Shown here one piece after another: positions 16,409 through 18,351 of a stretch of 20,883 nucleotides of DNA. Under the pieces are notes generated by a model. That model saw nothing but the letters and a program-made list of their open reading frames with translations, was not told the DNA's origin and did no database searches. Positions within the stretch are counted from its first letter, which is position 1. Each line of letters begins with the position of its first letter. The stretch comes from a virus, in IMG/VR virus record IMGVR_UViG_3300027746_000113, positions 1 through 20,883 of that record. One strand, given 5' to 3'. The translations under genes and the position numbers were made by a program.

Positions 16409-17515
16409 TCACGGTTTCAGCATTCCCGAAAGAACATCGGCATTGCCCTGCCCCGATGATCGGTCTAGGTGCCCATACACCGAAACTGTGGTCACGATGG
16501 ACTCGTGGCCGAGCTGCGCCTGTATGGCGGGCAGCGGGCGGCCAGCGGTAATAAGCCACGACGCGCAGGTATGCCGCAGGTCGTGAATCCTTGGCCGTTT
16601 CTCCAAACCCTTGTCCTGGGCGCGGGCCACGGCGGGATGCCACACGTTCGGGGCGAACGACGCATTACGCACCACGCCGTCCGGGTTGTGCCGGCCCCGC
16701 CCAGAATTGGTGAACAGAAACTCACCCGAGTAGTCGAGCTGGGCGATGACTTGCGGCGGCAGGTTCACGGTCCGAACAGACTTCTTTGTCTTTGTCGGAC
16801 CTAGCTCGTAGCCGCCGCCTTCCTTCTTTTTCCAGGCCCGAGAAATCCTGACCGTGCCCGCGGCCTTGTCGACGTCCCGCGGGCGCAGTGCGGTGGCCTC
16901 AGACCAGCGGGCGCCCGACGTCACAAGGAAATCGACCAGCGGTATCCAATGCTCGGGGATTTCGGCCCGCAAAATCTGGTATTCGGCTGGCTCGAGGAAC
17001 ACGTTTTCTTCGGCGTTGGTGCGCGGTAGGCGGACGTGTTCGCACGGATTGGACTTGATGTGTCCGCGTTCCACGGCGGCGTTCATCGCGCCGGCCAGAT
17101 AGCCGTGCTTGTTGGCGACGGTCTTGCCTGCCGGCATCGCCCCGTTAGAGTTTTTCAGTCCTTGCATCCACGCCCGCACATCATCGGGGGTTAGTGCCGT
17201 TAACGGCATATCGACGAGGCCGGGAAAGTCTTTCGCGGCGTAGCGTCGATAGTTTTTAAGCGTTTCAGCGGTGACACCGGTCAGGTGATCGTTGTGGTGT
17301 TTGAGCCACTGTCCGACGGTCAGTCCACGGTCCTGGGCCACAACTATCTTCGTGATTTCCAAAGCCTTGAGCGCACCCACCTTGCCGACGAGGGCGTCGA
17401 ACTGTAGGGCTTCGGCATGATCATCGAAGCTGACCGAAGTTTCTCTACCTGCGATGCGGTAGCGAACCTGCGTGTATGCACTGCCATCGTTGCGGGTGCG
17501 GATTCTGACGCTCAC
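16409..17515 (-). CDS. int: Tyrosine integrase
   Basis: The 368-residue protein has an N-terminal arm-binding domain (RIRTRNDGSAYTQVRYRI, 4-21) and a core-binding domain (LTVGQWLKHHNDHLTG to SNPCEHVRLP, about 65-164). The catalytic domain carries the full tyrosine-recombinase set: Arg203 (SGARWSEA), Lys near 243 (TKTKKS), His311-x-x-Arg314 (HDLRHT), His337 (LGHES) and the nucleophile Tyr347 (VYGHL). It recombines attP with attB and, with an excisionase, reverses this. GTG 17515 has an AGGAT ribosome site within an inverted repeat (17518-17532) that could hide it. The attP core lies about 90 bases upstream, so int is probably transcribed from within attP, insulated from late transcription by the terminator at 17751-17779. 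Confidence 0.95.
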   Translation of the reverse strand: MSVRIRTRNDGSAYTQVRYRIAGRETSVSFDDHAEALQFDALVGKVGALKALEITKIVVAQDRGLTVGQWLKHHNDHLTGVTAETLKNYRRYAAKDFPGLVDMPLTALTPDDVRAWMQGLKNSNGAMPAGKTVANKHGYLAGAMNAAVERGHIKSNPCEHVRLPRTNAEENVFLEPAEYQILRAEIPEHWIPLVDFLVTSGARWSEATALRPRDVDKAAGTVRISRAWKKKEGGGYELGPTKTKKSVRTVNLPPQVIAQLDYSGEFLFTNSGRGRHNPDGVVRNASFAPNVWHPAVARAQDKGLEKRPRIHDLRHTCASWLITAGRPLPAIQAQLGHESIVTTVSVYGHLDRSSGQGNADVLSGMLKP

Positions 17516-17535: not shown

Positions 17536-17738
17536 TGTGGACCGGGTGTGTGGACGGGAAGTTTCTGTTTTCTGTTTTCGCAGGTCAGACTATGTAAATT
17601 GGGTGGAGCTAAGGGGATTCGAACCTGACTGAAAAAGGGCAAAAACATAGCGTGATCTGCGGTATGTTGTTTTGGCATGTACGACTGAGTACGACCGGTT
17701 ACCTGCGGAAACGTGTTGGCATGTGGACCACGTCCACA
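17536..17738. other. attP region with tRNA-Ala core and arm-type repeats
   Basis: The core, 17602-17626, reads on the minus strand as the 3' end of a tRNA gene: T-loop TTCGAAT, the 3' part of the T stem, then TAGCTCCA. Acceptor strand TAGCTCC matches the G3-U70 acceptor of tRNA-Ala. The 5' half of the tRNA is missing, as expected for an attP core that restores the host gene upon integration. TGTGGAC occurs at 17536-17542 and 17549-17555 on one side, at 17722-17728 on the other side, and inverted at 17732-17738. GTACGAC occurs twice (17679-17685, 17689-17695), and TTGGCATGT twice (17672-17680, 17716-17724). These are candidates for arm-type sites. The strand asymmetry and the exact exchange point cannot be fixed from this window. 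Confidence 0.75.
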
Positions 17739-17750
17739 CCCCTAAACACG

Positions 17751-17779
17751 AAAAAAGACCCCACCCAAGGGTGGGAGTC
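17751..17779 (-). terminator. Strong intrinsic terminator after the tmRNA-like RNA
   Basis: On the minus strand GAC(T)CCCACCC pairs with GGGTGGGGTC (10 pairs, one bulged T), directly followed by TTTTTT. It lies 18 bases past the 3' end of the 82-nt structured RNA and ends the late/lysis transcript before attP and the integrase. Confidence 0.85.
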
Positions 17780-17796: not shown

Positions 17797-17878
17797 TGGA
17801 GCCGGTGCGATTCGAACGCACGTCCATCCCGGTTCCGCCGTGCGGATTTCGACGAGATGTAGAACCAGTCACGGCCCC
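17797..17878 (-). ncRNA. tmRNA-like mini RNA (tRNA-like domain only)
   Basis: The minus strand holds an 82-nt RNA. It has a 7-bp acceptor, GGGGCCG (17878-17872) with CGGCTCC (17804-17798), including the G3-U70 pair that identifies alanine RNAs, and a discriminator A. It also has a perfect T arm (GTGCG-TTCGAAT-CGCAC, 17821-17805) joined directly to the acceptor. The 50 nt in between form no D stem and no anticodon arm. Instead, CTGGTTC pairs with GAACCGG (7 bp) and CGTCG with CGGCG (5 bp). The 5' end (GGGGCCG, then CTGG and TTC) and the GGAC before the T stem resemble the ends of bacterial tmRNA as I remember them. No mRNA-like region with a tag frame fits. It lies between the gene at 17891 and a terminator. 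Other readings are a degenerate phage tRNA or a tmRNA relic. Confidence 0.55.
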
Positions 17879-17890
17879 TAGACAAAAAGT

Positions 17891-18130
17891 TCAGTCGGTG
17901 TCGACGTCAGCGTCTTCGCGTAGCTCGGTGGCTGTGCGAAGTAGGCCGTCGGTAATCCAGTCTGGTTGGTCGGCCGGCGCCCACACCCAGGCGGTCGATT
18001 CCACTTGACCTTCTGAGTTCATCTTTTCAAGTCCAAGGGCTAAAACGAATTGGCCAAGAACCCAGTTGTCGCCCTCGTCGTTGAGTAGGCGTTGGATGGC
18101 TGTTCGGAGCCGGTCAACGGGATTGGTCAT
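17891..18130 (-). CDS. 79-residue phage protein of a common mycobacteriophage type
   Basis: ATG 18130 overlaps the previous stop by four bases. The product starts MTNPVDRLRTAIQRLLNDEG, continues NWVLGQFVLALGLEKMNSEG and VESTAWVWAPADQPDWITDG, and ends with an acidic tail. Similar small proteins (NPVDRL...GQFVL...GLE, then W.W.P..QP.W...GL) are, as far as I recall, common in mycobacteriophages near lysis or regulatory genes, with no function known. It is the last protein gene before the tmRNA-like RNA, which begins 12 bases after its stop, so both are probably on one transcript. Confidence 0.7.
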   Translation of the reverse strand: MTNPVDRLRTAIQRLLNDEGDNWVLGQFVLALGLEKMNSEGQVESTAWVWAPADQPDWITDGLLRTATELREDADVDTD

Positions 18131-18351
18131 TTGTTGAGCCTGACTGCAAGCCGGTGCAGGGGATCTATGCGGCGAGGCCACTGCCGAAGCAGATGTAACG
18201 CTATGTAGGCGATGGCACCGTTGGTAATGAATGGGTGCCGGATTCGGTACCGGTCGACGGCTTCACTCAACAGTTGCCCGGGTGGGCACGCTGCCTCGTA
18301 GGCGACGATTCCGGCCACCAGGGCGGCCCAGGCGTAGTCGGCGTGCTTCAT
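18127..18351 (-). CDS. Small membrane-associated phage protein
   Basis: The 74-residue protein starts MKHADYAWAALVAGIVAYEA, a hydrophobic helix. It then has CPPGQLLSEAVDRYRIRHPF and ITNGAIAYIALHLLRQWPRR, a second hydrophobic helix, ending with LHRLAVRLNK. This layout recalls a family of small mycobacteriophage proteins (possibly DUF7427, by memory). ATG 18351 has GAGGGG as ribosome site. Its stop overlaps the next ATG by four bases. Function unknown; two spans suggest a role at the membrane near the time of lysis. Confidence 0.7.
   Translation of the reverse strand: MKHADYAWAALVAGIVAYEAACPPGQLLSEAVDRYRIRHPFITNGAIAYIALHLLRQWPRRIDPLHRLAVRLNK

Follow-up and report, generated by a model that had tools for sequence, protein, structure and literature searches.

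The minus strand of the window, by which we mean the whole stretch of DNA analysed (a virus record of 20,883 bases with integrase, lysin B, holin and terminase-like genes), encodes an 82-nt RNA which is very likely a tmRNA reduced to its tRNA-like domain (TLD-only tmRNA), and which is conserved as a folded RNA. Read from 5' to 3', this RNA runs GGGGCCG-UGACUGGUUCUA-CAUCUCG...CGGGAUG-GAC-GUGCG-UUCGAAU-CGCAC-CGGCUCC-A and consists of the following parts:

17797..17878, minus strand: 82-nt RNA extending from G1 (17878) to A73 (17797), very likely a TLD-only tmRNA; RF00023 match of 50.3 bits, covariation in five family variants
17872..17878, minus strand: 5' strand of the acceptor stem, with G3 at 17876; sequence, fold, covariation
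17860..17871, minus strand: D-loop without a D stem, UGACUGGUUCUA; fold, aligned to the RF00023 D-loop
17853..17859, minus strand: 5' strand of P2, CAUCUCG; fold, covariation
17834..17846, minus strand: inner hairpin UCCGC-ACG-GCGGA, pairs 17846-17842 / 17838-17834; minimum-energy fold, covariation
17825..17831, minus strand: 3' strand of P2, CGGGAUG, whose final G is the first base of the GGAC linker (17825-17822); fold, covariation
17805..17821, minus strand: T arm with stem GUGCG/CGCAC and loop UUCGAAU; sequence, fold, covariation
17798..17804, minus strand: 3' strand of the acceptor stem, with U70 at 17800; sequence, fold, covariation

All seven acceptor pairs are formed between GGGGCCG (17878-17872) and CGGCUCC (17804-17798), G3-U70 included, and a CCA end is not encoded, A73 (17797) being followed by CTA. 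An initial annotation of this DNA had described a perfect 7-bp acceptor with G3-U70 and a discriminator A, as well as a perfect 5-bp T arm with loop TTCGAAT; both descriptions hold on the minus strand, a strand it had not named, where the RNA starts at 17878 and the T arm extends from 17821 to 17805. It had also pointed to a tmRNA-like 5' end and to GGAC before the T stem, in agreement with the alignment of the D-loop to the Rfam tmRNA family (RF00023) and with GGAC at 17825-17822. In a permissive Rfam scan of the RNA region the match to this family exceeded the gathering score, which is 47, with an E value of 4e-19 for a 381-base stretch. It spanned positions 17878-17794, aligned to model positions 1-374 except for 292 skipped positions of the message part; it was recovered again in a search of the whole record, and tmRNA is the best member of its Rfam clan for this RNA. 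According to both its sequence and the RF00023 alignment, the RNA contains no message domain, tag reading frame or pseudoknots, which bears out the earlier reading that neither a tag frame nor a long insert is present. A cloverleaf is missing as well: D stem and anticodon arm, whose absence had been noted at the outset, are absent from the fold, and ARAGORN, run on the window, called neither a tRNA nor a tmRNA at this site. The permuted tmRNA model RF04321 scored only 12.9 bits (against 47), and the acceptor strands lie in normal order within one unit. An Rfam scan with a fast filter across the entire window missed the RNA and returned zero matches. The search motif was found at a single site of the window but in none of 100 dinucleotide shuffles. 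The folding energy is unremarkable by itself (z = -1.46); the case for this RNA is built on homology and covariation.

Integrase and pattern searches of viral contigs revealed seven further contigs with this RNA (L008, L025, L036, L037, L061, L062 and L063), which together with the window represent five distinct versions; a sixth version was found in a 34-kb contig (L246) with an IMG/VR name formatted like those of isolate genomes. The P2 strands of the five read CAUCUCG/CGGGAUG, CAUCGCG/CGCGAUG, CAUUCCG/CGGAAUG, CACGCCG/CGGCGUG and CAUGCCG/CGGCAUG, with seven pairs in each. Across the five versions 99.2% of cells are paired, seven pairs are changed on both sides, and the covariation score of the stems was reached by no shuffle; furthermore, the RNA retains high identity where the flanking DNA has diverged. 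These relatives also decide between two folds of the middle part, for which a long helix (7 + 5 bp with a 7-nt bulge) had initially been drawn. That helix is not conserved, as its two segments show no pair with both sides changed and only 86% and 92% of cells paired in the relatives, and P2 (CAUCUCG/CGGGAUG) with the inner hairpin is the true fold instead. No close relatives of the window at the DNA level were found in the phage collection.

Covarying stems in phages, for which the initial annotation had suggested a search, are present in these five variants and also in further phage RNAs. A pattern consisting of the tmRNA D-loop, GGAC and the T-loop, in which 14-44 bases took the place of the message part and neither P2 nor G3-U70 was specified, matched at least 120 stretches of viral sequence. 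We checked 134 of the matches listed, from two scans and a few earlier loci; T stem and acceptor were both perfect in 105 of them, whereas most of the others had T stems no better than random; real TLD-only tmRNAs are thus clearly separate from chance matches. All scans together yielded at least 106 distinct TLD-only tmRNAs in at least 133 viral loci, and among the matches listed G3-U70 is present in 105 of 106 and A73 in 106 of 106 distinct sequences. When reduced to 68 non-redundant sequences among the matches listed, P2 positions 2 to 7 are paired in 82-99% as opposed to 39-47% after shuffling, six pair types occur at each of these positions, G3-U70 is found in 67 sequences and acceptor pairs 4 to 6 vary. 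At least six contiguous P2 pairs were seen in 76% of 85 sequences among the matches listed, compared to 0.6% in shuffles. A subset scan with a complete listing contained 43 stretches, from which a rough extrapolation suggests a total of a few hundred TLD-only tmRNAs in IMG/VR. The flanks of the first ten families, although short, contained no proteins detectably common between families, so several unrelated groups of phages carry the RNA. All 19 records tested first contained a tmRNA match above the cut-off, and the short form was present in 18 of them; L017 was dropped as a carrier of the TLD-only form because this contig has a full tmRNA.

Individual viral records show further variation. The L139 record (123,582 bases) carries one TLD-only and one full-length tmRNA (46486-46567 and 77588-77979), and the L191 record (135,953 bases) carries two TLD-only tmRNAs (42520-42602 and 109671-109753). 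In the 63-nt forms of L125, L181, L194 and L203, P2 is a plain hairpin, and their size is near that of plastid forms of about 65 bp (PMC11915505). In L042 (5970-6061), and also in L010, L029, L039 and L054, a TLD-like RNA lies on the same strand as the portal protein coding sequence, whose 3' end it overlaps; P2 and the T stem show paired changes between the copies.

Full-length matches were also obtained for cultured phages, namely the Streptomyces phages Shaeky, pSt2308, LuckySocke and GiJojo and the Pontimonas phage phiPsal1. Their RNAs score 54.6-61 bits, all above the tmRNA cut-off, and have perfect acceptor and T stems; none of the five copies is annotated as tmRNA. The RNA is located among tRNA genes in the four Streptomyces phages and directly upstream of the major capsid gene in phiPsal1. 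Streptomyces phage Alone3 contains a decayed copy (36.8 bits) with a broken T stem; Alone3 (L111:678-757) and LuckySocke, whose copy is intact (L290:801-878), share the same Streptomyces lividans host strain and the same tRNA neighbours. In GiJojo a hypothetical protein (gene 44; L291:799-1041) is annotated across the TLD-only tmRNA, which is probably a false gene call. Several other leads from cultured phages were rejected, being full or permuted tmRNAs. Near a permuted tmRNA of Ruegeria phage RpAliso, a weak YrlA Y-RNA-like match was noted (L115:1163-1238; 42.3 bits, cut-off 69).

A close variant of the pattern produced 16 matches in 84,980 bacterial and archaeal genomes, and the only one with a full T stem lay inside a Synechococcus tmRNA (permuted form included). 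With a looser pattern, 346 actinobacterial genomes gave six matches, none of them with stems, and a reversed-pattern control gave about as many. The TLD-only form is rare or absent in the genomes scanned, which does not imply that it never occurs. The family covariance model was discarded as a genome probe: in 396 actinobacterial genomes its best match reached 42 bits, and 11 of 12 loci checked were tRNA-Ala, which the model picks up at 36-42 bits, the twelfth lying in a full tmRNA. No match was found in 401 genomes of the family holding the tRNA-Ala core described below, a search without a positive control, and plasmids contained no full-length match to two family members.

In the window, the RNA is flanked on its two sides by the following features:

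17891..18181, minus strand: small gene of unknown function, which stops 12 bases short of the RNA and from whose transcript the RNA may be released by cleavage
17759..17776, minus strand: intrinsic terminator, a 7-bp stem followed by TCTTTTTT, about 20 bases past A73

The small gene closes a same-strand run of genes, among them lysin B, holin and an exonuclease-like gene, and judging from this gene order the RNA would come last in a late operon. The RNA region yielded no sigma-70-like promoter, so that the RNA may be processed from the operon transcript. The strong terminator that had been predicted close downstream is indeed present, and a similar hairpin is found 3' of the RNA in the relatives despite differing spacers.

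What might such an RNA do? G3 paired with U70 and the discriminator A73 are known alanine identity elements, and since both are almost invariant among the matches listed, charging with alanine has probably been selected across the TLD-only class. We propose, with a probability of about 0.6, that the window RNA is a dominant-negative, alanylated decoy which takes SmpB and stalled ribosomes from host tmRNA. It would be excised by tRNA processing enzymes and receive a CCA end, be charged with alanine by host AlaRS, and be bound by EF-Tu and SmpB of the host; because no SmpB gene was found in 16 other phage records carrying such RNAs, host SmpB would have to serve. The charged complex with SmpB would then rival host tmRNA for both SmpB and stalled, non-stop ribosomes, and as it offers no tag frame it would act as a dominant-negative decoy and lower trans-translation during infection or lysogeny. 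There is a published precedent: the tmRNA gene of mycobacteriophage DS6A is listed as 'TLD only' (PMC4131195), and according to the 2025 tmRNA database paper (PMC11915505) the tag-less DS6A form inhibits the endogenous tmRNA of E. coli. In view of DS6A, the simplest mechanism would be the same, with the RNA acting as a decoy for host SmpB in competition with the tmRNA of the host. Inhibition by a similar molecule is reported not to depend on its ability to be charged, and may come about via SmpB titration (PMC4131195, published in 2014), so inhibition alone leaves the retention of G3-U70 unexplained. We therefore favour a charged decoy that enters stalled ribosomes, because the alanine pair is near-invariant and would be needless for a pure SmpB sponge. 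The function suggested at the outset, in which an alanylated RNA would bind SmpB and block trans-translation, fits both the DS6A case and the near-invariance of G3-U70. More than 100 viral loci, compensatory stems and the near-invariant alanine mark suggest that phages commonly act on ribosome rescue via RNA, and TLD-only tmRNAs may let them block or redirect this process; the five cultured phages with intact copies and Alone3 with its decayed one are phages available for testing.

The main rival of the decoy is rescue without tagging, which we consider rather unlikely. Here, the alanylated RNA and SmpB would enter stalled ribosomes and accept the nascent chain, and the peptidyl-RNA would then drop off or be hydrolysed, leaving the ribosome free and the protein not tagged for degradation. 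To our knowledge, no such release route has been described. In its favour, the near-invariance of G3-U70 and A73 suggests that charging matters, and frame-less mitochondrial tmRNAs are kept alongside mitochondrial SmpB; the authors suggest that these tmRNAs still assist with incomplete mRNAs (PMC11915505). However, inhibition is what was reported from the sole assay of a TLD-only RNA of the phage type. Somewhat more broadly, TLD-only tmRNAs could be a widespread, charging-selected class engaged in tag-less rescue, or in a switch to another rescue route, beyond soaking up SmpB; we regard this as a tentative idea.

Alternatively, the RNA might be a decoy for another partner, such as AlaRS, EF-Tu, RNase P, the CCA-adding enzyme or a tRNA-cutting defence nuclease. 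The acceptor, the T arm and the alanine identity are all present, and the relatives in the four Streptomyces phages sit among tRNA genes. For this purpose, however, the tmRNA-specific D-loop, P2 and the GGAC linker would be needless and a tRNA-Ala would do, which makes a target other than SmpB and the stalled ribosome unlikely.

The neighbourhood of the RNA beyond its terminator raises the question of whether it is a relic of integration or excision:

17602..17625, minus strand: likely attP core GGTTCGAATCCCCTTAGCTCCACC, corresponding to a tRNA-Ala(GGC) 3' end; a neighbour outside the RNA
16409..17515, minus strand: tyrosine integrase, a neighbour

A relic of host ssrA acquired through imprecise excision, or a duplicate of the attachment site, would fit the nearby integrase and the tRNA-type attP core, which lies about 170 bases from the RNA, and cluster K1 phages integrate at ssrA, the tmRNA gene (PMC10865867). 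Yet GGTTCGAATCCCCTTAGCTCCACC, found in an actinobacterial genome as the 3' end of tRNA-Ala(GGC) and hence most likely the attP core, is a sequence separate from the RNA; four integrase-bearing relatives share its last 22 bases completely or almost completely. The window phage thus probably integrates at tRNA-Ala, and host tmRNA was rejected as attB since the core is a tRNA-Ala end. The integrases nearest to that of the window are those of cluster K phages, although the window core is tRNA-Ala(GGC). In L025, L036 and L037 the RNA is present, but the integrase and the attP core are both missing from its surroundings, so the RNA is not part of the attachment site. In addition, the stems covary across the five variants, and conservation is much stronger in the RNA than in the flanking DNA. 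A relic, which the initial annotation had listed as an option, is contradicted by these conserved, covarying stems in related phages and by the many phage RNAs of the same build, and is very improbable. Least credible of all are a tRNA-Ala pseudogene, which would share G3-U70 and the T arm and resembles what the family model picks up in genomes, but fits neither the missing ARAGORN tRNA call nor the best clan score for tmRNA, and one piece of a permuted two-piece tmRNA, which is at odds with the normal order of the two acceptor strands within a single 82-nt unit and with the poor permuted-model score.

The initial idea of a tmRNA reduced to its tRNA-like domain is thus upheld by Rfam, covarying stems and many phage RNAs; as a type, such an RNA was already known from DS6A. 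The original paper on the DS6A TLD-only tmRNA is reportedly Mao 2009. Going by its description, the DS6A RNA resembles the window RNA in being phage-encoded, barely more than a tRNA-like domain and devoid of a tag frame. DS6A differs in that it integrates at tRNA-Lys (PMC10865867), whereas the window phage probably uses tRNA-Ala, and in that the literature consulted treats it as a single phage case, whereas here many phages and covariation are involved. Full-length phage tmRNAs, known from Bxz1, Cali, Wildcat and others (PMC4131195), have the same acceptor, D-loop, P2 start and T arm, but also possess the message part and tag which the window RNA lacks. Tag-less tmRNAs have also been described in mitochondria of jakobids and others, together with the two plastid forms of about 65 bp (PMC11915505); like the window RNA they have retained the tRNA-like domain and lost the message part, but they are organellar and, in mitochondria, usually permuted, whereas the window RNA is a single piece in normal order. 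The RNAs of tRNA-dependent lysogeny (PMC10865867) are likewise small phage RNA genes resembling a host RNA, but they replace a disrupted host tRNA, whereas the window RNA has no anticodon and the likely attB core is tRNA-Ala. In the open-access papers searched we found no other phage RNA of the TLD-only kind besides DS6A. By this measure, what appears to be new is how widespread the class is, along with its covariation, the conservation of the alanine mark and the cultured carriers.
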